Assembly (NCBI GenBank): GCA_021203205.1
Contig: JAJQBQ010000044.1
Span: 37,013-101,012, forward strand
Origin: Lachnospiraceae bacterium
GTDB lineage: Bacteria; Bacillota; Clostridia; Lachnospirales; Lachnospiraceae
Reading direction: 5' to 3'
DNA: 64,000 bases
Part shown: positions 17,438-57,541 of the stretch, in pieces
How the letters are laid out: each line of letters starts with the position of its first letter
How positions within the stretch are numbered: the first letter of the stretch is position 1
Program-made: the position numbers and the translations under genes
The notes under the pieces: model-generated
Seen by the model: the letters and a program-made list of their open reading frames with translations, nothing else
What the model was told of the DNA's origin: nothing
Databases searched by the model: none

Positions 17438-17452
17438 GCGCGTTCCTCCTTT

Positions 17453-17476
17453 CGCAAAAGTTACACCTCCTATAGT
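17453..17476 (+). promoter_or_regulatory. Promoter-like element, copy 1
   Basis: CGCAAAAGTTACACCTCC is followed directly by TATAGT (17,471-17,476), then the ribosome site of the next gene. It belongs to the family with CGC exactly 18 nt upstream of the hexamer. Confidence 0.6.
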
Positions 17477-17495
17477 GAAAGGAGGTGAAGAAATC

Positions 17496-17782: not shown

Positions 17783-18094
17783 ATGGTCAGCGATAAGCAA
17801 TCAATCTGCCCCGAGTGCGGAGGACAGTTAAAGTATTACGACAAAGCAGTACGTGTGGTGCGTGGACGGCGAAGACAGACACAACGAATCAAGATACGCA
17901 GGCTCCGGTGCGAGAACTGTGGCAGGTATCATCGTGAGCTGCCTGACTTTATATTTCCATACAAGCAATATGATGCAGATGTCATTCGAGGTGTATGCGA
18001 GGGGTTCATCACACCAGATACAATCGGGTTTGAAGATTACCCATGTGAGATGACAATGAAGAGATGGAAGGCGCAGGAATTACATCTCCTTTAA
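17783..18094 (+). CDS. DUF6431-like zinc-finger protein
   Basis: A 103-aa protein with two Cys pairs (CPECGGQL at about 9-16; CENCGRYHRELPD at about 48-60) and the motif PYKQYDADVI. This matches the DUF6431 family, small zinc proteins of Firmicutes phages and mobile elements that resemble the DNA-binding end of IS-type transposition proteins. The function is not known. The ribosome site (GAGGG) is weak. Confidence 0.65.
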   Translation: MVSDKQSICPECGGQLKYYDKAVRVVRGRRRQTQRIKIRRLRCENCGRYHRELPDFIFPYKQYDADVIRGVCEGFITPDTIGFEDYPCEMTMKRWKAQELHLL

Positions 18095-18095
18095 T
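18072..18095 (+). promoter_or_regulatory. Promoter-like element, copy 2
   Basis: CGCAGGAATTACATCTCC is followed by TTTAAT (18,090-18,095), then GGAGG and the next start. It overlaps the 3' end of the preceding gene. Confidence 0.5.
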
Positions 18096-18108
18096 GGAGG
18101 TGAATTTT

Positions 18109-18300: not shown

Positions 18301-18310
18301 ATATTTTTCT

Positions 18311-18334
18311 CGCGAAATTTACAAGGACTATAGT
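18311..18334 (+). promoter_or_regulatory. Promoter-like element, copy 3 (drives tRNA-like RNA 1)
   Basis: CGCGAAATTTACAAGGAC is followed by TATAGT (18,329-18,334). The predicted start, 6-7 nt on, coincides with the 5' end of the tRNA-like element. Confidence 0.7.
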
Positions 18335-18339
18335 GAAAG

Positions 18340-18413
18340 AAATAGTTAGTTCAATTGGTGAGAACGGCAGCGAGAGCTGGCATCAGTTGGTGGTTCGAGT
18401 CCGCCACTATTTC
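18340..18413 (+). ncRNA. tRNA-like RNA 1
   Basis: The 5' AAATAGT pairs with the 3' ACTATTT as an acceptor stem, followed by T8-A9. The D arm has stem GTTC/GAAC with GG in the loop, and the T arm is GGTGG-TTCGAGT-CCGCC. The overall length (74 nt with discriminator C) fits a tRNA. The middle arm does not: it folds as CAGC-GAGA-GCTG with a GNRA tetraloop and has no U33 or anticodon loop. It is therefore a tRNA mimic or degenerate tRNA rather than a decoding tRNA. No CCA is encoded. Confidence 0.6.
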
Positions 18414-18425
18414 TTTTATATTTTT

Positions 18426-18449
18426 CGCGAAATTTACAAGGACTATATT
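18426..18449 (+). promoter_or_regulatory. Promoter-like element, copy 4
   Basis: CGCGAAATTTACAAGGAC is followed by TATATT (18,444-18,449). The upstream 18 nt are identical to copy 3. Confidence 0.65.
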
Positions 18450-18491
18450 GAAACAAATAACTAAACAATTTTCTATATGGAGGTATTTATT

Positions 18492-19563: not shown

Positions 19564-19569
19564 TATTTT

Positions 19570-19593
19570 CGCAAGAATAACATCTGCTTTAAT
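19570..19593 (+). promoter_or_regulatory. Promoter-like element, copy 5
   Basis: CGCAAGAATAACATCTGC is followed by TTTAAT (19,588-19,593), directly after a GATATTTT motif. Confidence 0.55.
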
Positions 19594-19632
19594 GAAACTA
19601 ATAAACCTAATTTTTATTATGGAGGTAGCAAC

Positions 19633-20156: not shown

Positions 20157-20375
20157 ATGCTTTTAGAGATGATGTTTATCGTGGGTGTGATATTTGGGAA
20201 TGTTTTTACTTATGTGAAATTACACATTAAATCTCCCGGCCGTATAAGGATTGACACATCCGACCCGGATGGTCCGTACATGTTTCTGGAATTGACAGAG
20301 CCGGTAAAGTCATTCATGAACGAGAAGCAGGTGCTACTCGACATCGACTTGGAGAATTACCTTCCGCGAGAATAA
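20157..20375 (+). CDS. Small membrane protein common in Clostridia phages
   Basis: A 72-aa protein with an N-terminal transmembrane helix (about residues 1-20), then a short soluble part with the motif RIRIDTSDPDGPYMFLEL. I know this motif from many phage genomes, but its role is unknown. Confidence 0.55.
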   Translation: MLLEMMFIVGVIFGNVFTYVKLHIKSPGRIRIDTSDPDGPYMFLELTEPVKSFMNEKQVLLDIDLENYLPRE

Positions 20376-20388
20376 CATCTGCTTTTAT
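20365..20388 (+). promoter_or_regulatory. Promoter-like element, copy 6
   Basis: CGCGAGAATAACATCTGC is followed by TTTTAT (20,383-20,388). The 5' part lies inside the end of the preceding gene. Confidence 0.5.
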
Positions 20389-20423
20389 GGAACTATTGTT
20401 TATATTTTCAAATGGAGGACAAC

Positions 20424-20795: not shown

Positions 20796-20846
20796 ACAAT
20801 TATGCAGACGGAGGGATTATGCAGACAGCATGGTCTCTTCGTTTTT

Positions 20847-20870
20847 CGTGATATTTACAAGGCCTATAAT
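20847..20870 (+). promoter_or_regulatory. Promoter-like element, copy 7
   Basis: CGTGATATTTACAAGGCC is followed by TATAAT (20,865-20,870). A GATATTT motif overlaps the upstream box. Confidence 0.5.
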
Positions 20871-20946
20871 GGAGATATCTCTAGATTAAAAATTAATCGT
20901 GTGGTATAACTATCACACAAATTTATCTTGAAAGGAGATATTCATT

Positions 20947-21670: not shown

Positions 21671-21671
21671 A

Positions 21672-21695
21672 CGCGAAATTTACAGGGTCTATTAC
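21672..21695 (+). promoter_or_regulatory. Promoter-like element, copy 8
   Basis: CGCGAAATTTACAGGGTC is followed by TATTAC (21,690-21,695). Confidence 0.5.
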
Positions 21696-21724
21696 AGAAA
21701 TAAATCTTTTAAGGAGGTAGCTTT

Positions 21725-21920: not shown

Positions 21921-21929
21921 TGATATTTT

Positions 21930-21953
21930 CGCGAAGAATGCGAGGACTATAAT
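21930..21953 (+). promoter_or_regulatory. Promoter-like element, copy 9
   Basis: CGCGAAGAATGCGAGGAC is followed by a perfect TATAAT (21,948-21,953). GATATTTT abuts it upstream. Confidence 0.65.
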
Positions 21954-21988
21954 GAAACAATAAACCCTGCAATTTTAAGGAGGTAATT

Positions 21989-22251: not shown

Positions 22252-22258
22252 ATATTTT

Positions 22259-22282
22259 CGCGAAATTTGCAAGGACTATAGT
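22259..22282 (+). promoter_or_regulatory. Promoter-like element, copy 10 (drives tRNA-like RNA 2)
   Basis: CGCGAAATTTGCAAGGAC is followed by TATAGT (22,277-22,282). The tRNA-like element begins 6 nt later, the same spacing as at 18,340. Confidence 0.7.
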
Positions 22283-22287
22283 GAAAG

Positions 22288-22357
22288 AAATAATTGGTTT
22301 AGTTGGTAAAACGCAGGTGAAATTCCTGAGATATCGGTTCGAATCCGATACTATTTC
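22288..22357 (+). ncRNA. tRNA-like RNA 2
   Basis: The acceptor AAATAAT pairs with ACTATTT (one A-C mismatch). The D arm is GTTT/AAAC with GG in the loop, and the T arm is ATCGG-TTCGAAT-CCGAT. The middle arm has stem CAGG/CCTG and the 7-nt loop TGAAATT, which lacks U33; GAA sits one position early. It has the same acceptor ends and promoter as RNA 1. It is probably a tRNA mimic or decayed tRNA. Confidence 0.55.
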
Positions 22358-22400
22358 TTTTGCTGTTTATATTTTTCTTCACTGAAAGGAGGACGAAGAA

Positions 22401-23156: not shown

Positions 23157-23158
23157 TT

Positions 23159-23182
23159 CGCAAAAATTGCAAGGACTATAGT
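23159..23182 (+). promoter_or_regulatory. Promoter-like element, copy 11
   Basis: CGCAAAAATTGCAAGGAC is followed by TATAGT (23,177-23,182). Confidence 0.65.
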
Positions 23183-23210
23183 GAAGAATCAATGAAAGGA
23201 GGTTATCGCT

Positions 23211-24211: not shown

Positions 24212-24213
24212 TC

Positions 24214-24237
24214 CGCAAAAATTACATACGCTATTAT
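24214..24237 (+). promoter_or_regulatory. Promoter-like element, copy 12
   Basis: CGCAAAAATTACATACGC is followed by TATTAT (24,232-24,237). Confidence 0.55.
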
Positions 24238-24280
24238 GGGGAAACAACCCTAAATTATATTTGTAAAGGAGATTGTAACT

Positions 24281-41986: not shown

Positions 41987-41990
41987 TTTT

Positions 41991-42014
41991 CGCGAAAAAA
42001 ACATGGACTGTTAT
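41991..42014 (+). promoter_or_regulatory. Promoter-like element, copy 13
   Basis: CGCGAAAAAAACATGGAC is followed by TGTTAT (42,009-42,014), upstream of the nuclease/RNAP-like operon. Confidence 0.5.
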
Positions 42015-42071
42015 GAAGAGAAAAGGTATAAGTGCCATTTTCTCTAAACTTTTGAAAAGGAGCCTATTTCT

Positions 42072-42362
42072 ATGTTAGAGAGTGAATTTCAGGCATCACT
42101 CATCCGAGAATTAAAGAAACGATTCAAAGGATGCATTGTGATGAAGAATGACCCGGATTATATTCAGGGCATACCTGACTTGCTGATTCTTTACAACAAT
42201 AAATGGGCTACGCTCGAATGTAAAAACAGTGCAAGCGCGAAAAAGCAACCCAATCAGGAGTATTATGTAGGACGTATGAACGAGATGTCATTCTCAAGAT
42301 TCATTTGTCCGGAGAACAAAGAGGAGGTTTTAAATGAACTTCAACAGGCATTCGGAAATTAG
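42072..42362 (+). CDS. VRR-NUC endonuclease
   Basis: A 96-aa protein with the family core: MKNDPDYIQGIPDLLIL (about residues 26-42), then WATLECKNSASAKKQPNQ (about 47-64). Asp, Glu and Lys of the PD-(D/E)XK site are present. Stand-alone VRR-NUC proteins in phages are structure-specific (Holliday-junction type) nucleases. AAAAGGAG lies ahead. Confidence 0.88.
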   Translation: MLESEFQASLIRELKKRFKGCIVMKNDPDYIQGIPDLLILYNNKWATLECKNSASAKKQPNQEYYVGRMNEMSFSRFICPENKEEVLNELQQAFGN

Positions 42363-43011
42363 GGGAACCCACGCTTGCTTTGGAGCCAGCGACAGTGCAT
42401 GGCTTCGATACGATGAAGAGAAAGCTTTGATGAAATTGAAGAAGCGCTACATCACAGCGCTTGGGACAGAAGCACACGAGTTTGCTGAATCTCAGATCAG
42501 GCTTTGTAACAAGATTACGAGCAACAAGGATCTCAGTCATGGCTTTCGAACTTATATTTACAGGAAGTATTTGGATGGTTATGGTGACCTTTTGCCATAT
42601 GGCTCAACTTTGTTGGAGCACATTCAGTACATGCCGAAGACATCGTTTGAGACGATGAAGACATACATCAATGACGGAATTGGATTTCGTATGGAGACCG
42701 AGCAGCCATTGAAGTATTCTGATTATTTTTATGGAACAGCAGATTCGATCTCATTTCGAGACAACTTTTTAAGAATACACGATCTTAAGACTGGAATAAC
42801 ACCGGTTCACATGGAGCAGCTTGAAATTTACGCTGCTCTTTTTTGTTTGGAGTACAAGGTGAAACCTGGTGAGATCGAGATGGAGCTTCGGATCTATCAG
42901 AACAATGAAGTATTATATTTGAATCCGACTGCAGAAGAAATCCTTCCTATCATGGATCGGATTGTTTCACTTAACAAGACAATCATCAGATCAATGGATA
43001 AGGAGGGCTGA
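42334..43011 (+). CDS. PD-(D/E)XK nuclease, RecB/Cas4-like
   Basis: A 225-aa protein with FYGTADSISFRDNFLRIHDL, then KTG (Asp and Lys of the nuclease site), followed by MEQLEIYAALFC (the QxxxY-like motif of RecB-family nucleases). It probably acts in phage recombination or packaging-linked processing. It overlaps the VRR-NUC gene by 29 nt. Confidence 0.75.
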   Translation: MNFNRHSEIRGTHACFGASDSAWLRYDEEKALMKLKKRYITALGTEAHEFAESQIRLCNKITSNKDLSHGFRTYIYRKYLDGYGDLLPYGSTLLEHIQYMPKTSFETMKTYINDGIGFRMETEQPLKYSDYFYGTADSISFRDNFLRIHDLKTGITPVHMEQLEIYAALFCLEYKVKPGEIEMELRIYQNNEVLYLNPTAEEILPIMDRIVSLNKTIIRSMDKEG

Positions 43012-43015
43012 GATC

Positions 43016-45982
43016 ATGAGAATCGCGGATGATATTTTGATGCATTATGGCGTTGGTAAACTTGATGGCGCTCCTGGTCGTGGCTCAGGTCGTTATCCAT
43101 TGGGAAGCGGTAAGAATCCAAACCAGCATAGCCGAGATTTTCTATCTCGAATTGATGATTTGAAGTCTCAGGGATTGACTGAGAAACAGATTGCTGATGC
43201 AATGGGCCTTACCACAACTCAGCTTAGGGCACAGAAAGCCTTAGCAAAATCGGAAGTTCGATCTGCAGAGTATGAAAGAGCAAAAGAGCTGCAGGAGCAG
43301 GGTTACAATCCTACAGAAATAGCTCGAATCATGGGATACAAGAGTGAATCGTCAATTCGATCTCTTTTGAATCCGAAATCTGCAGAAAACATGAACAAAT
43401 CTATGGTGACCGCGGAACTTATCAAGAAGGAAGTTGATTCTAAAGGATTGGTTGATGTCGGAACCGGTGTTGATGCAGAGCTTGGCATTTCCAAAGAAAA
43501 GCTGGATCAGGCTTTGGCTATTCTGCAGGAACAGGGTTATGAAGTTTATGGTGGACGTATTCCACAGGCTACCAATCCTGGCAAGTATACAACACTGAAA
43601 ATCATTGGCCCGCCTGGAACAGAGCATAAAGACATTTACAACTATGGTGAAATCAGTTCACTGAAAGATTATATTTCCTATGATGGCGGCGAATCTTTTA
43701 AGAAGGCTTTCGAGTATCCGGCAAGTATGGACTCAAGCCGATTGCAGATTCGCTATGCCGAAGATGGTGGTAAAGACAAGGATGGTGTTGTTGAGATTCG
43801 TCGAGGTGTGGAAGATCTGTCTCTTGGTAATTCACACTACGCACAGGTTCGAATCCTTGTTGATGGAACACATTACATCAAAGGAATGGCTGTCTATTCT
43901 GATGGAAGTGATATGCCTGATGGTGTCGATGTTATATTTAACACCAACAAGAGCAAATCGGTATCAAAGATGGATGTCTTAAAGGAGATTCATACCGAAG
44001 ATCCTGACAATCCGTTTGGCTCTCTGATCAAGGAACATGGTGGCCAGAGCTATTATGACGATCCGAATGGTAATTATATTGATGAGGTGACCGGAAACAG
44101 GCAGTCATTATCACTCATCAACAAACGAGCTGATGAAGGAGACTGGGGTGACTGGGCTGATGCTTTACCGTCTCAGTTCTTATCCAAGCAAAGTGATAAG
44201 CTTATTAAACAGCAGCTCACACTTGCAGCAGATGACAAGAAAGCAGAGTATGAAGAGATTTGTTCACTTACCAATCCTACTGTTAAGAAGGCATTGCTGA
44301 AATCCTTTGCTGATGATTGCGATGCAGCAGCAGTTCATTTGAAAGCAGCGGCTTTACCGAGGCAGAAATACCAAGTTATATTACCCTTGACAACAATCAA
44401 GGATACCGAAATCTATGCTCCTAATTATGAAGATGGTGAAACAGTTGCTTTGATTCGTTATCCGCATGGCGGAACCTTTGAAATTCCTATCCTGAAAGTA
44501 AACAACAAGCAGGCAGAAGGAAGAGAGGTTTTGGGTAACACACCTGCAGATGCGGTTGGCATCAGTTCTTCTGTAGCAGCCCGATTGTCTGGTGCAGACT
44601 TTGATGGCGACACCGTTATGGTTATTCCATGTAACTCGTCAAACAGTAAGATCAAGATCGTTTCTACTCAACCATTGGAAGGTTTGAAGAATTTTGAACC
44701 AAAGGACGAGTATGGTGCAGATTATTCCACTACTGATGCTGATGGAGTAACCAAGCATTATTATCGTAACGGCGTTGAGTTCCAGCAGATGAAGAACACT
44801 CAGACAGAGATGGGTAAGATTAGTAATCTTATCACAGACATGACTTTAAAGGGTGCTACTGATGATGAGCTTGCTCGTGCTGTCCGGCATAGTATGGTTG
44901 TCATTGATGCAGAGAAGCATCATTTGGACTACAAAGCAAGCGAGCGCGAGAACAACATTACTGGATTGAAGAAGAAATACCAGGCCAAAGAGGATGAAGA
45001 GAAGTATGGTGGTGCCGCAACTCTAATCTCTCGTGCAAAGTCCCAGACCTCTGTAACCAAGAGACAGGGTGTGCCTAAAATTAATCAAAAGGGTAAGGAG
45101 TGGTACGATTCAAGCAAGCCCGAGGGAGCCCTGATCTATAAGGACAGCGAGAAGGCTACCTATGATGTGGCTAAGGTGAGTCGCCGCTCTGCAGATACCA
45201 ATGCTACCATCCGTATAAGTGCTAAGGGTACGGCTTATGCCCAGCCTGATGACTCAGAGAAGTGGTACCCCATAGATGGGAAGACCACCACCCTGAAAGA
45301 AGGAGACCGAGTCGATGCAACCATTACAAGTAAGACCCGTACTGAGAAGAGTACCAAGATGGCTGAGACTGACGATGCCATGACCCTTGTTTCAGAATAC
45401 AGATCCCGTGCCGAACTGGCCTATGCGGACTATGCCAACCAGATGAAGTCCCTTGCCAACCAGGCCCGTATCGAGATGGTTAGTACCGGTAAGATAGAAT
45501 ATTCAGCCTCTGCCGCTAAGACCTATGCAGAAGAGGTGAAGGTTCTTAAGTCAAAATTAAACGTGTCCTTGCAGAACGCACCAAAAGAGCGCCTTGCTCA
45601 GATTATTGCCAATGATAAGGTGACTGCTATGAAACAGGAAAATCCTGACATGACAAAAGAGCAGATCAAGAAGGCTTCTCAGCAGGCACTTACTCAGGCA
45701 CGTCAGACTGTTGGTGCAGAACGACAAGCCATTGAGATTACTGATCGTGGATGGGAAGCTATTCAAGCTGGCGCAATTAGTGAGAATCAGCTTGCACAAA
45801 TTCTTGATCATACTGACATTGACAAATTAAAAGAACGTGCAACACCACGAACTTCTACGGAATTGAGTCAAGTTCAACAGAACAGAATCAAGTCTTTGGC
45901 TGCTTCTGGTTATACAACAGAACAAATAGCAAAAGCGCTTGGCGTTTCAACTTCTACTGTTCGAAAGTATTTAAAACAGTAG
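43016..45982 (+). CDS. Single-chain RNA-polymerase-like protein with DFDGD motif
   Basis: A 988-aa protein. The N-terminus (MHYGVGKLDGAPGRGSGRYP) resembles the tags of the capsid-region proteins. Two helix-turn-helix units follow (about 50-75 and 92-118). The central domain has LIRYPHGGTFEIPIL, then LSGADFDGDTVMVIP with Asp at about 528, 530 and 532. This matches the DxDGD magnesium site of the double-psi barrel of cellular RNA polymerases and YonO-like phage enzymes. A third HTH ends the protein (YTTEQIAKALGVSTSTVRKY). Codon use changes at about 44,990-45,550. Catalysis is not proven. Confidence 0.75.
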   Translation: MRIADDILMHYGVGKLDGAPGRGSGRYPLGSGKNPNQHSRDFLSRIDDLKSQGLTEKQIADAMGLTTTQLRAQKALAKSEVRSAEYERAKELQEQGYNPTEIARIMGYKSESSIRSLLNPKSAENMNKSMVTAELIKKEVDSKGLVDVGTGVDAELGISKEKLDQALAILQEQGYEVYGGRIPQATNPGKYTTLKIIGPPGTEHKDIYNYGEISSLKDYISYDGGESFKKAFEYPASMDSSRLQIRYAEDGGKDKDGVVEIRRGVEDLSLGNSHYAQVRILVDGTHYIKGMAVYSDGSDMPDGVDVIFNTNKSKSVSKMDVLKEIHTEDPDNPFGSLIKEHGGQSYYDDPNGNYIDEVTGNRQSLSLINKRADEGDWGDWADALPSQFLSKQSDKLIKQQLTLAADDKKAEYEEICSLTNPTVKKALLKSFADDCDAAAVHLKAAALPRQKYQVILPLTTIKDTEIYAPNYEDGETVALIRYPHGGTFEIPILKVNNKQAEGREVLGNTPADAVGISSSVAARLSGADFDGDTVMVIPCNSSNSKIKIVSTQPLEGLKNFEPKDEYGADYSTTDADGVTKHYYRNGVEFQQMKNTQTEMGKISNLITDMTLKGATDDELARAVRHSMVVIDAEKHHLDYKASERENNITGLKKKYQAKEDEEKYGGAATLISRAKSQTSVTKRQGVPKINQKGKEWYDSSKPEGALIYKDSEKATYDVAKVSRRSADTNATIRISAKGTAYAQPDDSEKWYPIDGKTTTLKEGDRVDATITSKTRTEKSTKMAETDDAMTLVSEYRSRAELAYADYANQMKSLANQARIEMVSTGKIEYSASAAKTYAEEVKVLKSKLNVSLQNAPKERLAQIIANDKVTAMKQENPDMTKEQIKKASQQALTQARQTVGAERQAIEITDRGWEAIQAGAISENQLAQILDHTDIDKLKERATPRTSTELSQVQQNRIKSLAASGYTTEQIAKALGVSTSTVRKYLKQ

Positions 45983-46021: not shown

Positions 46022-46264
46022 ATGTCAACAAGATTCGCATTGACAACGTTTGACAATCCTTACAATCCATTCACAGATTTCAATTCTTGGTTTCTGTTTG
46101 ATGTGGAAAAAGGATACAATTCTTGTGGTTATCTTGGAAGAATCGCGAAAACTTCTGATCAGTTCTCGGAAGAAGAGAACAATAAGGAAGTAGAGCGAGC
46201 AATTGATGAAATTGTAAAGTATGATTTCAGAAATATCTACAAAAAAGTAAAGCAAACTGCTTAA
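46022..46264 (+). CDS. Conserved small phage protein, unknown
   Basis: An 80-aa protein with FALTTFDNPYNPFTDFNSW, a motif seen upstream of terminase genes in these phages. AAAGGAG lies ahead. Confidence 0.55.
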   Translation: MSTRFALTTFDNPYNPFTDFNSWFLFDVEKGYNSCGYLGRIAKTSDQFSEEENNKEVERAIDEIVKYDFRNIYKKVKQTA

Positions 46265-46340
46265 CGAAAGGACGAATTTTGAATAAATTTCTGTTTGTTG
46301 TAGGAAATGAAAGCGTACAAGGGTTTCATAAGGAATTTTA

Positions 46341-46430: not shown

Positions 46431-46436
46431 ATATTT

Positions 46437-46567: not shown

Positions 46568-46592
46568 AGTGAATTAAAAGAGGTGATATTTC

Positions 46593-47705: not shown

Positions 47706-48239
47706 ATGGTTTATACATATTTTGGTAATGAACTTTACCATCACGGTATTCTCGGGATGAAGTGGGGTGTCCGGCGTTATCAGAATGAAGATGGTACTTT
47801 AACGGAAGAGGGAAAGAAACGATACAATCGTGATATTCAGGAGAATAAAGCCAAAAAGAAAGATAGTCGAATTGATACAAGCTCCCCTGATCCGAACCGC
47901 TGGGTAAGGGAAGATAAGGAAAGAGCTTTGGATACAGTAAACGAATCTTCAAAGCTTGTTAACCAACTTTCCAAAATCGAGCAGGAGACCAGAACACAAC
48001 CGGTAAAGCAGAAAATGGATTTGTCTAACATGACCGATAAAGAATTGCGAGACCAGATCAATCGTGAGCTTTTGGAACAGCAGTACAACAAGCTTTTTGC
48101 AGAAGAGACAACTCCACAGACTTCAAAGGGTAGAGAGTATGTACAGAACACTCTTGAAATAGCTGGAACAGTGTTAGGCTTAACCAGTTCTGCTTTGGCA
48201 ATTGCGCTTTCAATTCAGAAATTAACTGGGAAAGGATAA
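47706..48239 (+). CDS. YHHG-tagged phage protein 1
   Basis: A 177-aa protein with the N-terminal tag ELYHHGILGMKWGVRRYQ (about residues 9-26), then NEDGTLTEEGKKRY. A charged helical middle contains MTDKELRDQINRELLEQQY, and a hydrophobic helix lies near the C-terminus (about 150-168). The tag recurs in five neighbours. It begins about 4 nt after the connector gene. Confidence 0.7.
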   Translation: MVYTYFGNELYHHGILGMKWGVRRYQNEDGTLTEEGKKRYNRDIQENKAKKKDSRIDTSSPDPNRWVREDKERALDTVNESSKLVNQLSKIEQETRTQPVKQKMDLSNMTDKELRDQINRELLEQQYNKLFAEETTPQTSKGREYVQNTLEIAGTVLGLTSSALAIALSIQKLTGKG

Positions 48240-48242
48240 GTA

Positions 48243-48746
48243 ATGGTTTACACATATTTTGGTAATGAACTTTACCATCACGGTATTCTCGGGATGAAGT
48301 GGGGTGTCCGGCGTTATCAGAACGAAGACGGTACTTTGACAGAAGCTGGTAAAAGAAGAAAAGCCAAGATCAGTAAGAAAGAAGAGAAAGCCCGTGCTAA
48401 AGAGGAGAAAGAATACACCAAAGCACGTACTAGAGAAGTTGCAAATAAAGAGAACGATTTAAGTGATGATTTCGACAAAACAGAAGAGGGTCAAAAGTTA
48501 TGGAAAGAATATTCAGACCAGCTTGATAAGATGTACTCAACTTATGACGACACCATGGATTGGGAGGCATTTAGCAAGGCTGAATCGAACTATCTCAAAG
48601 CGCAAGGCGAATATGTGGCAAGGCAGTTAATAAGCATTTATGGAGAAGAGGATGCAAAGAAATTTGGAGATTATGGTCGACTTGAAAAAAGTGAAAACTT
48701 TATAAAAGACATGGGTGATGAATACCTGTATCTTCATGGCGAATAA
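48243..48746 (+). CDS. YHHG-tagged phage protein 2
   Basis: A 167-aa protein whose first 35 residues match protein 1 almost exactly, with about 100 bp nearly identical DNA. The rest is unrelated, acidic and helical. The sharp end of identity suggests tag exchange or recent duplication. Confidence 0.7.
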   Translation: MVYTYFGNELYHHGILGMKWGVRRYQNEDGTLTEAGKRRKAKISKKEEKARAKEEKEYTKARTREVANKENDLSDDFDKTEEGQKLWKEYSDQLDKMYSTYDDTMDWEAFSKAESNYLKAQGEYVARQLISIYGEEDAKKFGDYGRLEKSENFIKDMGDEYLYLHGE

Positions 48747-48767: not shown

Positions 48768-50513
48768 ATGGCACTATCGAACACAGCCGTTCCAAAATAC
48801 TACGGCATGTTTCGAGATGCCGTAACTCGCGGCGAAATACCAATCTGCAGAGAGATTGAAATGGAGATGCATCGGGTTGATGACCTGATTGCAAACCGAG
48901 GAGTTTACTATGACGATCAGGCAGTAGAAGGCTGGATCAAGTTCTGTGAAGCAGAGATGACCCTGACGGATGGAGCAGACCTGACATTGCTTGACAGCTT
49001 TAAACTCTGGGGCGAACAGGTTTTTGGTTGGTACTACTATGTGGAGCGTAGTATCTATGAACCGAACGAAGACGGCCACGGCGGACACTTCGTCACAAAG
49101 ATGGTGAAGAAGCGACTGGTGAATAAGCAATACCTTATCGTCGGTCGAGGTGCAGCCAAATCTCTCTATGATTCCTGTATTCAATCTTACTTCGAAAACG
49201 TTGACACATCTACAACACATCAGATCACGACAGCGCCAACCATGAAACAGGCCGACGAAGTAATGTCTCCAATTCGAACAGCAATTACCAGATCGAGAGG
49301 TCCGCTCTTTCAATTCTTAACCGAGGGTTCCATTCAGAACACAACCGGCTCAAAAGCAAATCGAGTGAAGCTTGCTTCCACAAAGAAGGGGATTGAAAAT
49401 TTTCTTACCGGCTCACTGCTTGAGATAAGACCGATGAGCATCGCGAAGCTGCAGGGGTTAAGACCGAAGATTTCTACAATCGACGAATGGCTTTCCTGCG
49501 ACTCCAGAGAGGATGTAGTTGGTGCAATCGAGCAGGGTGCGTCCAAAGTTGACGACTATCTGATCATCGCAACCAGCTCCGAGGGCACAGTCCGAAACGG
49601 AGTAGGCGATACAATCAAAATGGAATTGACGAGCATTCTCCGGGGTGAGTACATCAACCCACATGTCTCCATTTGGTGGTACAAACTGGACTCCATTGAC
49701 GAGGTCGGAGACCCTGCCATGTGGCTGAAAGCCAATCCGAACATCGGTAAGACCATTAGCTACGAGACTTATCAGCAGGATGTGGAGAGAGCAGAGAAAG
49801 CACCCGCAGCGAGGAATGATATTCTGGCGAAAAGATTTGGGCTCCCGATGGAAGGCTATACCTATTACTTCGCTTACGAGGAAACCATTCCCCATAAGAA
49901 GCGGGTTTACTGGCAGATGTCCTGTGCACTTGGCGCGGACTTATCCAGGGGCGATGACTTCTGTGCATTTACATTCCTATTTCCGCTGGAAGGCGGATAT
50001 TTTGGAGTTAAGACTCGGGATTACATCGCATCGACAACCTTGATGAAGCTTCGTCCGGCTATGCGAACGAAGTATGAGCAATTCATGAAAGAAGGTACCC
50101 TGATCGTTATGGAGGGTACGGTTCTGGAAATGATGGATGTCTATGAAGATTTGGACAAGTTCATCAGTACAAATGAGTATGATGTGAGATGCTTTGGATA
50201 CGACCCATACAATGCAAGAAGCTTCGTTGAGCGATGGGAAAACGAGAATGGGCCATTCGGCATCGAGAAAGTAATTCAGGGAGCAAAAACAGAATCAGTT
50301 CCTCTCGGAGAGTTGAAGAATCTTGCGGAGCAGAGGATGTTGCTGTTCGATGAAGAGCTGATGTCTTTTGCTATGGGAAACTGTATCACATTGGAAGATA
50401 CGAATGGTAACCGGAAGTTGTACAAGCAGCGGCACGATGAAAAGATTGATGCTGTTGCAGCTATGATGGATGCATACATAGCATACAAGCTGAATCCGGA
50501 AGCGTTTGAATAA
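48768..50513 (+). CDS. terL: Terminase large subunit
   Basis: A 581-aa protein. The ATPase domain has the Walker A-like VGRGAAKS (about residues 126-133) and Walker B ISTIDEWLS (about 239-247). The nuclease domain has GADLSRGDDFCAF (about 387-399), FGYDPYNA and KIDAVAAMMDA near the C-terminus. It is an HK97/Terminase_1-type enzyme that drives DNA into the prohead and cuts it. AAAAGGAG lies ahead. Confidence 0.95.
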   Translation: MALSNTAVPKYYGMFRDAVTRGEIPICREIEMEMHRVDDLIANRGVYYDDQAVEGWIKFCEAEMTLTDGADLTLLDSFKLWGEQVFGWYYYVERSIYEPNEDGHGGHFVTKMVKKRLVNKQYLIVGRGAAKSLYDSCIQSYFENVDTSTTHQITTAPTMKQADEVMSPIRTAITRSRGPLFQFLTEGSIQNTTGSKANRVKLASTKKGIENFLTGSLLEIRPMSIAKLQGLRPKISTIDEWLSCDSREDVVGAIEQGASKVDDYLIIATSSEGTVRNGVGDTIKMELTSILRGEYINPHVSIWWYKLDSIDEVGDPAMWLKANPNIGKTISYETYQQDVERAEKAPAARNDILAKRFGLPMEGYTYYFAYEETIPHKKRVYWQMSCALGADLSRGDDFCAFTFLFPLEGGYFGVKTRDYIASTTLMKLRPAMRTKYEQFMKEGTLIVMEGTVLEMMDVYEDLDKFISTNEYDVRCFGYDPYNARSFVERWENENGPFGIEKVIQGAKTESVPLGELKNLAEQRMLLFDEELMSFAMGNCITLEDTNGNRKLYKQRHDEKIDAVAAMMDAYIAYKLNPEAFE

Positions 50514-50803: not shown

Positions 50804-51928
50804 ATGAAATACGTTTACCAAGGCAATGAGCTTTATCATCATGGTATTCTCGGTCAGAAGTGGGGACAAAAGAACGGGCCTCCGTATCCTCTTGACTCTT
50901 CTGACCATTCTTCATCTGAGAAGAAGGCAGGATGGAAGAAATCACTTGATAAAAGTTCGTCTGATACAACGAAATCCTCGATAAAGAAACTTAGCAATCA
51001 GGATTTACGAGAATTTCGTCAGAAGACAATAGACAAACAGGATAAGGATGCAAAGAAGCAGCAGGATACCAAAACAAAAAGCGAGGAAGAATTAGAGCAA
51101 ATAAGAGCAAGGAGAAAAACAGCTGCTAAAGTGGCAATAGGTGTAGCTGCGGCGGCTGGAATAGGTGTTGGTGTATATTTTGCCTACAAGCGGAATGCGA
51201 TTGATTATTTAAGTATGGGTATGCCAGCCAAAGACGCTTTAAAAACTGCTATGAGCGATATAGACAGTACCAAGGATCAAATATTAGATAGTATCGACGA
51301 TACTATATTACCTGCGGGAACTACGTTTCATCGAATGACAGCGGAGGCCGGCATTGATTTTTCAAAGATGACATCTCCTACATATGTGTCATATAAAGAA
51401 AAAGACGTATTAACATATATGACGCAGCTTAAAGATTGGTCCGGAACTGGCGAACGTTACGATGTTACTTTGGAAGCAATCAAAGATATTCGTATGCCGT
51501 CCAAAGAAAAAGCACAGAAAGTTTTCGAGCAATTATGGAACGAAGATTCACAATATAGAAATGATTTGCAGGAATCTCTTGAAAGCCTGTATTATTCTGC
51601 TTATGAAAAGCAAGGATATGGAGCTTATTATACACAAGGAATGCTTAAGAGCGCCGCTAAATCAGAAGCTTCTCAAGCTCTCTCACAAGATCCATTTATG
51701 GCTGCTGTTTATTCAATTGTAGGACGCGGAAAAGATACTGAAACTTTTCTTGGAAAACTTAAAGATTTAGGATATTCCGCAATAGAAGACTATTTCGATA
51801 AAGGCTCCTTTACAGATTCACCAGTAGTGTTATTTGACGCATCTACTTCTGTAGTAAAGAAGGGAGAGGAACTTGTTACATCAGCTATGAAACAATTAGC
51901 GCTTACAAGATTAGCTCAATTGACATAG
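50804..51928 (+). CDS. YHHG-tagged protein 3 with membrane segment and ART-like domain
   Basis: A 374-aa protein. The tag ELYHHGILGQKWGQKNGPPY (about residues 9-28) is followed by a charged helical linker, one transmembrane helix (about 106-126) and a C-terminal domain (about 155-350). That domain contains LPAGTTFHRM, then KLKDLGYSAIEDYF and SPVVLFDAS, a pattern of ADP-ribosyltransferase-like domains in phage head proteins. The protein at 53,284 shares the plan. An effector or virion role is inferred. Confidence 0.6.
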   Translation: MKYVYQGNELYHHGILGQKWGQKNGPPYPLDSSDHSSSEKKAGWKKSLDKSSSDTTKSSIKKLSNQDLREFRQKTIDKQDKDAKKQQDTKTKSEEELEQIRARRKTAAKVAIGVAAAAGIGVGVYFAYKRNAIDYLSMGMPAKDALKTAMSDIDSTKDQILDSIDDTILPAGTTFHRMTAEAGIDFSKMTSPTYVSYKEKDVLTYMTQLKDWSGTGERYDVTLEAIKDIRMPSKEKAQKVFEQLWNEDSQYRNDLQESLESLYYSAYEKQGYGAYYTQGMLKSAAKSEASQALSQDPFMAAVYSIVGRGKDTETFLGKLKDLGYSAIEDYFDKGSFTDSPVVLFDASTSVVKKGEELVTSAMKQLALTRLAQLT

Positions 51929-51951
51929 CAAATTATTGGTGTTAAGATATT

Positions 51952-51975
51952 CGCAATAAACACATGCTCTTTTAT
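51952..51975 (+). promoter_or_regulatory. Promoter-like element, copy 14
   Basis: CGCAATAAACACATGCTC is followed by TTTTAT (51,970-51,975), then GGAGG. It is the only copy in the late region, upstream of a small gene with its own terminator, like the early units. Confidence 0.5.
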
Positions 51976-51990
51976 GAGGAGGTAATGCTT

Positions 51991-52225: not shown

Positions 52226-52702
52226 TTGGAAAACAGTTTATACCATCACGGTATACTCGGTCAGAAATGGGGCGTTCGTCGCTACCAGAATGAAGATGGA
52301 AGTTTGACCGAAGCTGGGCGAGCACGACTCAGCAAGAAAGACGAAAAATGGGTAAAAAAGAACAGCGACAAGATTACCGAAAAAGCCACGAAAAAGGTGT
52401 CGAAAGACATGAAGAAGTATCAGAAAGAGCTTCTGAACCAGCCAGGAGCGGTCAATAAGAACGGTAAACTTAGCGCAAAGACCATCAATGCCTATAACCA
52501 GCGGATGGCACAGCTGATGACCGAGCAGGTTTCAAACATTTCCTCTCCATCCGGACAGGTCGTGAAGTTTGTGGCAAAGCGAAGTGAGATCGGTGTCATG
52601 ATGGCACTGGCAGATCAGGGCTATAACATGGACCAGCTCAAGAATGGTGTCTGGACTTCCGGCAAGATTGCTTACAAATCGACGGTGCTGGACAAGGTTT
52701 AG
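52226..52702 (+). CDS. YHHG-tagged phage protein 4
   Basis: A 158-aa protein starting at TTG with GGAGG 7 nt upstream. The tag SLYHHGILGQKWGVRRYQ starts at residue 4, then NEDGSLTEAG. The remainder is basic and helical (KKVSKDMKKYQKELLNQPG). The role is unknown. Confidence 0.65.
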   Translation: MENSLYHHGILGQKWGVRRYQNEDGSLTEAGRARLSKKDEKWVKKNSDKITEKATKKVSKDMKKYQKELLNQPGAVNKNGKLSAKTINAYNQRMAQLMTEQVSNISSPSGQVVKFVAKRSEIGVMMALADQGYNMDQLKNGVWTSGKIAYKSTVLDKV

Positions 52703-52724
52703 GGATTTGGGAGGAAAAATCAAA

Positions 52725-53273
52725 ATGGTTTACATGTATTACGGTGATGAACTTTACCATCACGGCATTCTCGGACAAAAGTGGGGTGTACGCCGCTATC
52801 AGAACTATGATGGCAGTTACACACAGGCTGGTTTGAAGCGGTACGCAAAGGCACAGACGGCTTATGAGGATGCGAAAGCGAACGCTAAGTCAGCCAAGAC
52901 CGCATACAAGGAAGGTATCGGTTCAAAAGAAAGCTATAAACAGGCCAAAGCTGAGGTGAAATCGACAAAAAAAAAGATGGATTCCGAATACGAAAAGTTG
53001 CCGCAGCATAAGAAGGCCGATGAGGGAAAGAAACTTTATGCTCAGGGTAAGACGATTACGGATAATGGCAATCATGCCAGAATTGCGCAGACTGCTATTA
53101 TCGTTGGATCGGGTGTAGCCCAGAGAGTCTTAGCCCAAAGCGGTGATCAGCAACTTGCAACGATTGCTCCTGCTGTTATTGCAGTGGGAGGGACTGCTGT
53201 AAATGCTGCTATTTATGCAAAGACTTCCTCGGAGAACAAAAAGTTGAGAGCTTACTATGCACATAAATCATAG
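52725..53273 (+). CDS. YHHG-tagged phage protein 5
   Basis: A 182-aa protein with the tag ELYHHGILGQKWGVRRYQ (about residues 9-26), a long Ala/Lys-rich helix, and a hydrophobic C-terminal segment (about 122-165) that may be one or two membrane helices. Confidence 0.65.
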   Translation: MVYMYYGDELYHHGILGQKWGVRRYQNYDGSYTQAGLKRYAKAQTAYEDAKANAKSAKTAYKEGIGSKESYKQAKAEVKSTKKKMDSEYEKLPQHKKADEGKKLYAQGKTITDNGNHARIAQTAIIVGSGVAQRVLAQSGDQQLATIAPAVIAVGGTAVNAAIYAKTSSENKKLRAYYAHKS

Positions 53274-53283
53274 GAGAAATGGT

Positions 53284-54384
53284 ATGAACTATGTTTATTA
53301 CGGCCGCGAGTTATACCATCATGGTATACTCGGTCAGAAGTGGGATAAAAGGAATGGACCACCATACCCATTAGACGCTTCTGATCATTCGTCATCTGAG
53401 AAAAAGGCCGGATGGAGAGATTCACTTAAGAAAACCGTTTCGAGTGCGAAACAGAAGCATCAGAGTAATTTGGAAAAGAAATACGAAAAGAAAGGTATGA
53501 GTTCCTCTGATGCAGAAGCAGCAGCAAAGAAACGAATGAAAGTTGAGAAAGTTGTTGCAGCAGCTGGAGCTGTAACTTTAGCCGCAGCAGCTGCCTACAC
53601 AGTGAAGAACAAATTCTGTGCTGAATATACAGATTCTGTATTAAAGAAGGGAACCAAATTTCAAACAATCGCAACCGATCAAGATATTTCGGGGCGCTCC
53701 AGAATTTACGCTGCTCAAACAAAGAGGGATAAAGTTATTTACAAAGGGCTATATGGCAATCAATTAGCTCAAAGCGGAAAGAAAGTGTTTAATATAACTA
53801 CTGAGGCATCGGATGACATAAAAGTTCCTTCTCGTAAGAAAGCAGCAGAGGTATTTGCAGATTTGTATAAATCTGATTCTACGTTTAGACAGCAGGTGGA
53901 TTCAAATATGTCCACATATAAAAATGCCGGTCTAGGAGCTAAACAGAAGAAGCTTTTTAGTAAAATTACATCTGGTATGTCAGATAGTCAGCTTGTAAAA
54001 GAGGGCTATGATGCATTTAATATAGGGTTGGCTAATTATACAAATGGTGCTGCAGATACTTTTTATAGTAAGTTGAAATCTTTGGGTTATAATGCTATAG
54101 TAGACATGAATGATTCTAAATATAGTAGTTTTAAATCATCAAAGCCAGTGATTCTCTTTGACACTGGTTCTCTGGTTACAAGTGCGGTTGCATCTATGAC
54201 TGAAAAAGAGTTAAAGGTTAATAATATCGCACAGAAAGCGATTCGAAACGGAGCCACATATGCTGCCGAGTTGGGACTTATGGTGGGCGGTGTCGCCGCT
54301 ATGAAAAATAGTAGCACATATACTACGGCAACGAAATCATCCAAAAAGAAAACCACTGAAAATAAGGAGGAAAAGAAAACATGA
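53284..54384 (+). CDS. YHHG-tagged protein 6 with membrane segment and ART-like domain
   Basis: A 366-aa protein. The tag is ELYHHGILGQKWDKRNGPPY, with the Gly of KWG changed to Asp. A basic linker, a hydrophobic helix (about residues 82-104) and a C-terminal domain follow, with KKGTKFQTIA, KLKSLGYNAIVDMND and KPVILFDTG, parallel to protein 3. A second hydrophobic segment lies near residue 325. AGGAG lies ahead. Confidence 0.6.
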   Translation: MNYVYYGRELYHHGILGQKWDKRNGPPYPLDASDHSSSEKKAGWRDSLKKTVSSAKQKHQSNLEKKYEKKGMSSSDAEAAAKKRMKVEKVVAAAGAVTLAAAAAYTVKNKFCAEYTDSVLKKGTKFQTIATDQDISGRSRIYAAQTKRDKVIYKGLYGNQLAQSGKKVFNITTEASDDIKVPSRKKAAEVFADLYKSDSTFRQQVDSNMSTYKNAGLGAKQKKLFSKITSGMSDSQLVKEGYDAFNIGLANYTNGAADTFYSKLKSLGYNAIVDMNDSKYSSFKSSKPVILFDTGSLVTSAVASMTEKELKVNNIAQKAIRNGATYAAELGLMVGGVAAMKNSSTYTTATKSSKKKTTENKEEKKT

Positions 54385-54588: not shown

Positions 54589-55851
54589 ATGAATATGTCA
54601 TTTGGTTCCAGGTTGAAACACGCCTGGAACGCTTTTTTTAATAAGGACCCCACGAGCTATTATCGGGACATCGGAGCCGGAAACGCAATTCGTCCGGACA
54701 GGCCGAGATTCTCCAGGGGAAACGAAAGGTCAATTGTTACTTCCGTCTACAATCGTATTTCGATGGACGCAGCGGCGATTGACCTTTTTCATGTCCGTCT
54801 GGATGAGAATGGAAGATATTTGGAAACGATCGATTCCGGTCTGAACAACTGTCTCACAATCGAGGCGAATGCCGATCAGACAGGCAGGGCGTTTCTGCAG
54901 GATATAGTCATGTCGATGCTGGATGAAGGTTGTGTGGCAATCTTACCGACCGATACCGATACAGATCCTGATGCTTCCGGCTCTTTTCGTATTGATGAAA
55001 TGCGGGTAGGAAAGATTCTGGAATGGTATCCGGCTCATGTCCGTATCCGGGCTTACAACGAACACACCGGAAAGAAGGAAGATATCACAATGCCGAAGAG
55101 TGCGGTTGCGATTGTCGAGAATCCTTTCTATGCGGTGATGAATGAGCCTAACTCAACACTGCAACGTTTAATTCATAAGCTGAATCTTCTGGATGTTGTG
55201 GATGAACAGACGAGCTCAGGGAAACTGGATTTGATTATTCAGCTTCCTTATGTAATCAAGACCGAGGCAAGGCGAAAACAGGCGGAGATTCGTCGAAAAG
55301 ACATTGAAAACCAGTTGGCCGGCTCACAATACGGTATTGCTTACACAGATGGTACCGAGAAAATTACGCAGCTGAATCGAGCGGTGGAGAACAATCTGTT
55401 ATCTCAGATTGAATACCTGACGAGTATGCTTTATAGCCAGTTAGGAATCACTCAGGAGATCATGAATGGGACTGCCGACGAGAAAGCCATGCTTAATTAT
55501 TACAGTCGGACGATTGAACCGATTCTTGCGGCAATAGCTGATGAGATGAAGCGAAAATTCCTGACCAAGACTGCCCGGTCACAGCGACAGTCAATCGAGT
55601 TCTTCCGAGATCCGTTCAAGCTTGTTCCGGTTGCTGATCTGGCAGAGCTTTCTGATAAGCTGACAAGGAATGAAATCCTGACCTCGAATGAGGTTCGTCA
55701 GATTATTGGCATGAAGCCGTCGAACGACCCGAATGCGGATGAACTGAGAAATAAGAATCTGAGCGAGCCGAAAGGGGATACCCCTGTTGCAAATGCTCAG
55801 GTTGATGAAGAAACTGTAAATGACGAGGAGGAAAATCAAAATGAAGTTTGA
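54589..55851 (+). CDS. Portal protein (HK97-like)
   Basis: A 420-aa protein with SIVTSVYNRISMDAAAIDLF near the N-terminus, a central stem/wing region and LTSMLYSQLGITQEIMNG, typical of HK97-type portals. It forms the dodecameric DNA entry ring at one capsid vertex. AAAGGAGGTG lies ahead; it overlaps the protease-capsid gene by 11 nt. Confidence 0.9.
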   Translation: MNMSFGSRLKHAWNAFFNKDPTSYYRDIGAGNAIRPDRPRFSRGNERSIVTSVYNRISMDAAAIDLFHVRLDENGRYLETIDSGLNNCLTIEANADQTGRAFLQDIVMSMLDEGCVAILPTDTDTDPDASGSFRIDEMRVGKILEWYPAHVRIRAYNEHTGKKEDITMPKSAVAIVENPFYAVMNEPNSTLQRLIHKLNLLDVVDEQTSSGKLDLIIQLPYVIKTEARRKQAEIRRKDIENQLAGSQYGIAYTDGTEKITQLNRAVENNLLSQIEYLTSMLYSQLGITQEIMNGTADEKAMLNYYSRTIEPILAAIADEMKRKFLTKTARSQRQSIEFFRDPFKLVPVADLAELSDKLTRNEILTSNEVRQIIGMKPSNDPNADELRNKNLSEPKGDTPVANAQVDEETVNDEEENQNEV

Positions 55852-57541
55852 TTTCAGTGGCTATGCCACAAGAAACAACCTCAGATGCTCTGATGGACGG
55901 ACAATCCTGAAAGATGCGTTTAAGGCAGACGACGGTGAGATAAGACCTCTTGTGTGGAACCATCAGCATGACAGCGTAGATAATGTTCTCGGTCATGCTT
56001 TGCTGGAAAATCGTGATGATGGCGTGTATGCATATTGCTCATTTAACGATACCGAGTCCGGACAGAATGCGAAAGCCTTAGTGCAGCATGGAGATGTCCG
56101 GGCTTTATCTATTTATGCGAACCAGTTACAGCAACGTGGCACAAATGTTGTGCATGGCGCAATTCGCGAAGTGAGTCTCGTGCTTGCTGGGGCAAATCCT
56201 GGAGCATTTATCGAGTCTGTGGTGGAACACAGCGACGGTACGGATGAATGGGCGGTAATCAAGATGGATTCACCGATCAGCACCGAAAGTGGCCAGCTCG
56301 AATTGAAGCACGCCGACGAAGAGGATAAGAAAGAAGAAAAGGAGGAATCCGAAGTGGCAGACAACAAGAAATCTGACAGCGGAAAGACCGTAAAAGACGT
56401 GTTTGACACGCTGAATGAGGAACAGAAAACAGTGGTTTATGCACTGATCGGTCAGGCTCTTGAAGAAAAATCCGGCGGGTCTGACGACGATGATGAAGAA
56501 GGGAGCAAAGATATGAAGCACAATGTGTTTGACAACGAAGATAACCAGGGGAATGTTCTCAGTCATTCCGACATGATGGCTGTGATCGGTGATGCGAAGA
56601 GATACGGGAGCATGAAGGAGAGCGCACTGCAGCACGGTATCGACGATATCGATTATCTCTTCCCGGACTATAAAGAGATTAACAATCCGCCGTCGTTCAT
56701 CTCCCTGCAGCCGAATCAGTGGGTGACGACCGTCATGAATGGCGTTCACCACACTCCGTTTAGCCGCATTAAGATGACTTTCGCGGACATTACCATGGAT
56801 GAAGCCAGGGCGAGAGGTTACATCAAGGGTAACCAGAAAGTGGAGGAGACGTTCGGCCTGCTGAGAAGGACGGTTGATCCGACCACGATCTACAAGAAGC
56901 AGAAGTTCGACCGCGACGACGTGGTGGACATCACGGACTTCGACATTATTGCCTGGGTGAAGACCGAGATGAGAGGTAAGCTGGATGAGGAAATTGCCCG
57001 CGCGATTGTGTTCGGCGATGGCCGTAGCACGACCTCTGATGATAAGATTGATGAGACCAAGATTATCCCGATCGTATCCGATGCGGAGCTGTATGTCATC
57101 ACCTATGAGGTGAGCGATACCAGCGATGCCAGCAATATTATTGATGCAGCTGTAAAGGCGCAGGATAATTATCAGGGTAGCGGCAACCTGAAAATGTTCG
57201 TACCGAACTCTTCGGTTTCTGATATGCTTCTGGTGAAGGATTACAACCAGCGTCGTATCTACAAGGACATTGCGGAACTGGCAACCGCTTGCGCGGTAGA
57301 TTCTATCGTAAAGGTTCCGGATTCCATCGTTCCGGATGACATTCTGGCGGTGATCGTTGACCTTGATGACTACAACGTCGGCGCGGATAAAGGTGGTGCG
57401 GTCAAGATGTTCGATGACTTCGACATTGACTACAACCAGCAGAAGTACCTGATTGAGACCCGTTGCTCTGGCGCTCTGATCAAGCCGTATTCCGCGATCG
57501 TTCTTAAGAAGGGTTCAACTGACGAGGAAGAAGCGGCTTGA
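55841..57541 (+). CDS. Prohead protease fused to major capsid protein
   Basis: A 566-aa protein. The N-terminal S78-type protease (about residues 1-125) has WNHQHDSVDNVLGHA, DVRALSIYA and IREVSLVLAGANPGA. A Glu/Asp/Lys-rich segment (about 145-225), probably the scaffold, follows. The HK97-fold major capsid protein occupies about 240-560. In HK97-like phages these are often separate genes; here one polypeptide supplies all three, so self-cleavage should release the shell protein. GAGGAGG supports the ATG at 55,841. Confidence 0.88.
   Translation: MKFDFSGYATRNNLRCSDGRTILKDAFKADDGEIRPLVWNHQHDSVDNVLGHALLENRDDGVYAYCSFNDTESGQNAKALVQHGDVRALSIYANQLQQRGTNVVHGAIREVSLVLAGANPGAFIESVVEHSDGTDEWAVIKMDSPISTESGQLELKHADEEDKKEEKEESEVADNKKSDSGKTVKDVFDTLNEEQKTVVYALIGQALEEKSGGSDDDDEEGSKDMKHNVFDNEDNQGNVLSHSDMMAVIGDAKRYGSMKESALQHGIDDIDYLFPDYKEINNPPSFISLQPNQWVTTVMNGVHHTPFSRIKMTFADITMDEARARGYIKGNQKVEETFGLLRRTVDPTTIYKKQKFDRDDVVDITDFDIIAWVKTEMRGKLDEEIARAIVFGDGRSTTSDDKIDETKIIPIVSDAELYVITYEVSDTSDASNIIDAAVKAQDNYQGSGNLKMFVPNSSVSDMLLVKDYNQRRIYKDIAELATACAVDSIVKVPDSIVPDDILAVIVDLDDYNVGADKGGAVKMFDDFDIDYNQQKYLIETRCSGALIKPYSAIVLKKGSTDEEEAA

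Follow-up and report, generated by a model that had tools for sequence, protein, structure and literature searches.

The 64,000-nucleotide stretch of Lachnospiraceae contig JAJQBQ010000044.1 analysed here (positions 37,013 to 101,012; hereafter the window) consists of host-type DNA to ~16 kb and of a prophage from ~16 kb onward. On its plus strand the prophage encodes a 988-residue protein (ATG at 43016, end at 45982; TTG at 42962 is an alternative start) that is predicted to be a single-chain RNA polymerase (RNAP), and its early region carries many copies of a promoter-like DNA element. The polymerase gene is the third of a conserved string that runs from a VRR-NUC nuclease through a RecB/Cas4-like exonuclease and the polymerase to an 80-residue protein, and the head genes come after this operon (Table 1). 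We propose that the polymerase is delivered by the virion and that the element is its own early promoter.

The polymerase open reading frame (ORF) is not a chance one, because it matches the PHROG family phrog_4291 over its full length (1249 bits, residues 3–987). Homologues of 37–54% identity occur in 250 of 50,697 phage records searched with tblastn, from phages of Arthrobacter, Gordonia, Streptomyces, Lactococcus, Rhodococcus, Faecalibacterium, Bifidobacterium and other hosts, and at least 588 IMG/VR stretches encode the protein. Within the host family, copies were found in 5 of the 298 other genomes searched, the best with ~71% identity. The family members are known only by the database labels 'RNA-dependent RNA polymerase', 'HTH DNA-binding protein', 'HTH protein' (HTH, helix-turn-helix) and 'structural protein'. 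One copy in the host family (G255:C130, 80897–83506; L051) matches from residue 31 only and lies beside tail genes, with neither early module nor promoter site, in what is apparently a degraded prophage.

The sequence-only reading of this DNA had singled out the motif ADFDGD with an R-x-P segment ahead of it, and both are indeed present. R481-Y-P483 is followed, 42 residues on, by S-G-A-D-F-D-G-D (residues 525–532, ADFDGD being 527–532; window 44588–44611). R481, P483, D528, D530 and D532, together with K289 and K312, are invariant in an alignment of 68 relatives. A catalytic DxDxD loop in the beta'-type barrel, preceded by R-x-P, is a feature of two-barrel (double-psi) polymerases. Structure prediction points to the same fold, and did not give the barrel-less fold that would have told against the sequence-only reading. 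The AlphaFold model of the polymerase has a mean predicted local distance difference test score (pLDDT) of 83.1 and a predicted template modelling score (pTM) of 0.74, and its top Foldseek matches in the PDB are eleven chains of QDE-1 (E 2e-7 to 8e-7, probability 1.0), followed by plant RDR2 (E 2.5e-5); crAss gp66 was absent among the matches listed. The QDE-1 match supports homology of fold, not a precise superposition. K289 and K312, candidates for the two basic catalytic residues of the beta-type barrel, sit in a strand-rich region, where the QDE-1 alignment spans ~1,000 columns. Searches of PDB sequences with phmmer and profiles gave HTH-level or chance matches only. Homology and the predicted fold thus support a two-barrel polymerase, whose RNA synthesis is itself predicted.

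Three HTH units had also been proposed. The C-terminal unit (residues 951–987; strong Pfam matches, HTH_23 and others) and the second (about 88–116; a clear profile match) are upheld, and the first (about 42–85) is weak by sequence and appears as a three-helix unit in the model. These units bear on the nature of the template. The PHROG label makes the protein an RNA-dependent RNA polymerase, which we regard as very improbable. The closest folds, QDE-1 and RDR2, would agree with that label, as would a weak Pfam RdRP match (PF05183, residues 519–660), but the label comes from homology only, the three HTH units and the conserved DNA promoter element point to DNA, and the QDE-1 matches in Foldseek include DNA-template complexes. 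Moreover, YonO, which is assigned to the same superfamily, is DNA-dependent (PMC5467207). The HTH units, the promoter and the YonO precedent suggest that the polymerase uses a DNA template.

The 'unusual promoter family' of the sequence-only reading is real. Repeat analysis of the window gave the family CGCGAAATTTACAAGGACTATAGTGAAA in the early region, and the 30-bp promoter-like element has the consensus TCGCa-nnWTTTACA-nnnn-CTATARTGRRA. In Lactococcus phage 1706, with a polymerase of ~40% identity, the core TTTACAnnnnCTATAGT recurs eleven times without a mismatch, for the most part directly ahead of early genes. Further phages with the element are Arthrobacter Mudcat, Rhodococcus ReqiPepy6, Gordonia Chikenjars, Streptomyces HotFries and Lactococcus P092. 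When the 30-bp matrix was applied to 13 genomes in leave-one-phage-out fashion, it found 102 sites on the coding strand and 0 on the other, against ~0.3 in Markov shuffles. Conservation extends to the CGCA box and to the purines that follow CTATART, although neither was in the matrix seed. Sites occur mainly in the early module, ahead of early genes, with a median of 32 nt from the end of the CTATART box to the start codon and many at 19–25 nt (the mode). Those ahead of polymerase operons are of a variant form, CGCGAAAAAAACATGCCCTTTTATGAAGAGAG. A stretch of SPbeta that includes the region upstream of yonK, the reported YonO start, held no convincing site.

The element does not behave as an ordinary sigma-70 promoter, because it lacks a −35 box and because six tRNA genes start 3–5 nt after its CTATART box. 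Matches to the −35 hexamer TTGACA at 15–19 bp spacing upstream were no better than at random places, with the same distribution of mismatches. In all six close cases, from five prophages, the tRNA gene starts 3–5 nt past the final T of CTATART; two of these are in the window (18339 and 22287) and one each in prophages G046, G247a, G149 and G247b, G247a and G149 being nearly identical here. A sigma-70 start site lies ~7 nt (usually 6–7 nt) after the −10 box. A start at this distance would cut into the tRNA, since the tRNA 5′ ends are only 3–5 nt away. The tRNA spacing suggests that transcription starts at the conserved purine right after CTATART. One tRNA of ReqiPepy6, 9 nt after the box, is neutral in this respect.

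As a separate observation, the prophages G046 (L042, 3425), G247 (L056, 4784; L045–L047) and G149 (L048–L050) have a tRNA-like gene directly behind the promoter. ARAGORN calls these genes 'tRNA-Stop' or 'tRNA-???', and their anticodon loops are unusual.

Is the element linked to the polymerase? Two tests that are independent of the matrix building address this. First, loci were picked by protein similarity only, with at least 1.9 kb upstream required (n=64). The element lies on the plus strand within 1.9 kb upstream of the polymerase start in 56 of them (88%) and on the minus strand in none (0/64), and the operon sites are mostly 910–1130 nt upstream of the polymerase, just ahead of the operon. 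Second, IMG/VR was scanned by pattern alone. At least 120 stretches carried the motif, against 1 for the reversed pattern, and the polymerase was encoded in 32 of the 42 motif-bearing contigs of ≥30 kb checked, in 26 of 28 of ≥40 kb and in all 16 of ≥50 kb. Motif and polymerase share a strand on these contigs. In seven of the ten polymerase-less contigs, all or part of the group's DNA polymerase is present; these contigs may end before the polymerase. The early-promoter link that the sequence-only reading had imagined for the polymerase is therefore backed by comparative genomics, in the 13-genome scoring as in the two tests, and recognition of the element by the polymerase is a deduction from sequence comparison. 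The polymerase is strongly suggested as the natural candidate reader of the element.

How would such an enzyme reach its promoters at the start of infection? The polymerase begins HYGVGKLDGAPGRGSGRYPLGSG; most relatives read LMHYGMPRRSGRYPWGSG, and nearly every full-length relative inspected begins with a form of L-x-H-x-G...SGR-Y-x-x-G-[ST]-G. Residues 1–40 are disordered in the model (pLDDT <50). Six head-region ORFs of the window carry a YHHGILG[MQ]KW tag (Pfam DUF7211). A likeness between the polymerase N-terminus and these tags had been claimed from the sequence; both are there as described, and the likeness is limited to about 10 columns. DUF7211 (the KWGVRRYQ tag) and the polymerase N-terminus have D.L.HYG[IVM] in common, after which DUF7211 runs on as KGMKWGVRRYQ and the polymerase as PRRSGRYPWGSG instead. 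With hhalign, the N-terminus scored 25.9 against the tags over ~10 columns, compared with at most 13.7 in 51 control windows, though the DUF7211-like tags had been gathered by a pattern requiring HxG, which helps the match. Lactococcus phage 1706 offers a second line of evidence. Its polymerase, orf75, is deposited as 'structural protein' (GenBank EU081845), as are two small ORFs of the early region for whose name homology offers no evident reason, and its structural orf7 bears two DUF7211-like tags. Gp106 of Rhodococcus ReqiPoco6 is called 'structural protein' by similarity to orf75. Conservation of the tag and the 1706 label together suggest that the polymerase is packaged by means of the tag.

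The conserved N-terminal segment could instead be part of the enzyme, for example a sigma-like start-site element, a possibility that we consider the less probable one but give some weight. The segment is near-invariant in the polymerase itself, it shares so few columns with the DUF7211 tags, and DUF7211 (PF23847) is not among the best 25 Pfam matches of the polymerase. By contrast, the segment is predicted to be disordered, its hhalign score to the tags stands well clear of the controls even with HxG in the tag pattern, and the tags sit in head-module ORFs of the same phages.

We favour packaging, and the mechanism that we propose is as follows. The polymerase would be the phage's own early transcriptase, a DNA-dependent, single-chain, two-barrel enzyme. 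The promoter it reads would consist of a T-rich stretch, CGCa, WTTTACA, 4 nt, CTATART and a purine start, and would lack a −35 box. The HTH units built into the polymerase would probably read the upstream boxes, so that a host sigma factor would not be needed. The disordered N-terminal tag would carry the polymerase into the head during assembly; ejected along with the DNA, the enzyme would then transcribe the early genes. The promoter ahead of the operon for VRR-NUC nuclease, exonuclease, polymerase and 80-residue protein would have the polymerase gene transcribed too, and so provide the enzyme for the next particles. Because the operon lies behind the element in 88% of the independent loci, its transcription would have to be started by a founder enzyme, unless there is a host promoter as well. 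We put at about 0.72 the probability of a virion-delivered, early, DNA-dependent single-chain RNA polymerase that has a promoter of its own and sustains its own supply in a loop. That the whole scheme (injected polymerase, sigma-free promoter, purine start after CTATART, closed loop and founder-dependent infection) holds across a lineage of siphophages, both temperate and virulent, that infect Bacillota and Actinomycetota seems to us only somewhat better than an even chance.

A different scenario keeps the polymerase real and leaves it unpackaged, made after infection from a promoter of the host RNA polymerase and serving as a middle or late non-virion enzyme. YonO transcribes the late genes of SPbeta (PMC5467207), and the polymerase gene in the window borders the late module. 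The motif sites cluster in the early module, however, the polymerase operon is itself behind the motif and would need a founder enzyme, the tag is conserved, and the 1706 record names orf75 a structural protein. We judge this scenario unlikely.

Several points weigh against a packaged polymerase that reads its own promoter. The Foldseek TM-scores are low (~0.3). We infer that the label of 1706 orf75 rests on virion proteomics, and the label has not been traced to its paper. The group's DNA polymerase/primase has an almost identical distribution (252 full-length records against 250), so that the link between motif and polymerase holds only at the level of the phage group, and another conserved protein of the group could be the motif reader. 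An attempt to separate the polymerase from the DNA polymerase by distribution failed, the two sets of records coinciding. MT835495, without the group's DNA polymerase, still has the motif ahead of the polymerase operon, which favours the polymerase as reader; it is one unverified record. Finally, the CTATAAT of several phages (actinophages and P092) resembles a −10 box. That resemblance, together with the co-occurrence of the DNA polymerase and other genes with the motif, would suit a host sigma-A promoter (−10, TATAAT) joined to an upstream site where a phage activator or repressor binds, with the polymerase acting elsewhere. We find this quite unlikely: besides the missing TTGACA and the tRNA genes that begin too close to the box, the polymerase-operon sites have the variant box CTTTTATGA, a poor −10, and the same CGCA and TTTACA boxes recur in phages that infect Lactococcus and in others that infect Actinomycetota.

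The features of the locus are collected in Table 1. The 80-residue protein that adjoins the polymerase has a DNPYNPF...GY motif and may be a partner of the polymerase or be packaged with it. The non-coding stretch 46265–46592, which separates the polymerase operon from the late genes, contains G-runs and a 25-nt inverted repeat (46436–46460 / 46544–46568). It is likely to be the packaging (cos) site, because its position matches the right cos end of linear relatives such as ReqiPepy6, where the polymerase and an 80-residue-type gene lie. A cluster of imperfect direct and inverted repeats (TTTTTGGATGTACAAAAAC, TTTTGGGCCATTTTTGG) at 40600–41070, in the early region, is possibly a replication origin or a regulatory RNA. 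The early proteins encoded at 22401–23156, 23438–24211 and 24830–25459 are found in 12–13 of 14 relatives; in phage Oengus, several early proteins are annotated DUF6353.

Table 1. Features of the prophage (positions in the window; promoter elements are putative).
Feature	Position	Strand	Basis or remark
Promoter element, early region	17452..17481	+	score 32.1
Promoter element	18071..18100	+	score 26.5
Promoter element	18310..18339	+	CTATAGT box, 4 nt, then tRNA-Ser at 18339
tRNA-Ser	18339..18414	+	immediately behind CTATAGT box
Promoter element	18425..18454	+	score 31.0
Promoter element	19569..19598	+	score 24.5
Promoter element	20364..20393	+	score 20.0
Promoter element	20846..20875	+	score 33.9
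Promoter element	21671..21700	+	score 23.6
Promoter element	21929..21958	+	score 17.1
Promoter element	22258..22287	+	box, 4 nt, then tRNA-Phe at 22287
tRNA-Phe	22287..22358	+	immediately behind CTATAGT box
Promoter element	23158..23187	+	score 28.4
Promoter element	24213..24242	+	score 32.4
Promoter element upstream of polymerase operon	41990..42019	+	CGCGAAAAAAACATGGACTGTTATGAAGAGA
VRR-NUC-type endonuclease (phrog_93)	42072..42362	+	gene 1 of conserved polymerase operon
RecB/Cas4-like exonuclease (DUF2800, phrog_3953)	42334..43011	+	gene 2 of operon
Predicted single-chain two-barrel RNA polymerase, 988 aa (phrog_4291)	43016..45982	+	profile match, alignment, model, Foldseek
N-terminal tag (residues 1–40, HYG...GRGSGRYPLGSG)	43016..43135	+	conserved, predicted disordered
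Two N-terminal HTH-like units (residues ~42–85, ~99–143)	43139..43444	+	profile (second), model helices
Putative first (beta-type) barrel region with invariant K289, K312	43787..43957	+	boundaries inferred
Second (beta'-type) barrel: R481-x-P483, catalytic D528/D530/D532	44366..44629	+	boundaries inferred
C-terminal HTH (residues 952–987)	45869..45976	+	Pfam and model
80-aa protein (phrog_4303), adjoins polymerase	46022..46264	+	kept in 14/14 relatives
Head-region protein with YHHGILGMKWGVRRYQ tag (DUF7211)	47706..48239	+	
Head-region protein with YHHGILGMKWGVRRYQ tag	48243..48746	+	
Terminase large subunit	48768..50513	+	
Tagged head-region protein (YHHGILGQKWG...NGPPYPL)	50804..51928	+	
Promoter-like element, late region	51951..51980	+	score 18.2; ahead of small ORF at about 51991
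Tagged head-region protein	52226..52702	+	
Tagged head-region protein	52644..53273	+	
Tagged head-region protein (YHHGILGQKWD...NGPPYPL)	53257..54384	+	
Portal protein	54589..55851	+	
Prohead protease fused to major capsid protein	55820..57541	+	

A second strand-biased word runs through the early region. The octamer TKATATTY occurs 127 times on the plus strand and twice on the minus strand over 68 kb, about once per 320 bp in the early region (window 16000–46600; for example at 18299, 18896, 19246, 22937 and 43030). It ends just past the polymerase gene (46584) and is nearly absent from the head genes. It is found in every reading frame as well as between genes, and even within the minus-strand integrase it lies on the plus strand. 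Oengus has the same bias with the same boundary (50 against 4), and ReqiPepy6, Chikenjars and BitterVaud1 have ATATT-type words with a strand bias. The idea that TKATATTY is a lysogenic silencer site was dropped, given similar ATATT-type words in ReqiPepy6 and Chikenjars, where no integrase was seen.

Several known systems resemble parts of this one. Closest are 1706 orf75, ReqiPoco6 gp106 and Mudcat gp94, full-length homologues of about 40–54% identity with the same tag, barrels and HTH units and, in most, the same operon. YonO of Bacillus SPbeta is likewise single-chain, prophage-encoded and assigned to the two-barrel superfamily, but it is a late-gene enzyme, and, as a correction to the comparison drawn in the sequence-only reading, no sequence similarity to YonO was detected (hhalign probability 0.2); the window polymerase belongs to a large family of its own. 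Which promoter YonO uses, and whether it depends on additional factors, was left open by the authors of the YonO study (PMC5467207). Gp66, the virion RNAP of crAss-like phage phi14:2, is a single-chain two-barrel enzyme from a different phage lineage, and virion-delivered early transcription is what we propose for the window polymerase likewise. In phage P23-45, gp96 (the virion enzyme, vRNAP) and gp64 (the non-virion enzyme, nvRNAP) are two-barrel RNAPs whose presence has been linked to phage-specific promoter motifs (PMC10770324). The window polymerase would work in the manner of these crAss-like and P23-45 virion RNAPs. Gp96 lies within the tape measure protein, whereas the window polymerase stands alone and bears a head-type tag, and the P23-45 promoter differs in sequence from the element. 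QDE-1 of Neurospora and plant RDR2, the best fold matches in the PDB, are cellular RNA-silencing polymerases without the phage HTH units, tag or promoter.

The superfamily is thus already known, and none of the labels under which phrog_4291 has been catalogued assigns it a role in phage transcription. The new result is the element; we found no promoter described for PHROG 4291 relatives in the searchable literature. The family counts at least 250 phage records, some from tractable phages of Lactococcus and Arthrobacter, and comes with a putative promoter of defined sequence, so that how a single-chain relative of cellular RNA polymerases recognises its promoter becomes directly testable. If the element is a true promoter, it could serve as an orthogonal expression tool for Gram-positive hosts. 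If the proposal as a whole is true, it would correct hundreds of records that now read 'RNA-dependent RNA polymerase' or 'HTH protein', and it would suggest a tag for packaging proteins into the phage head.

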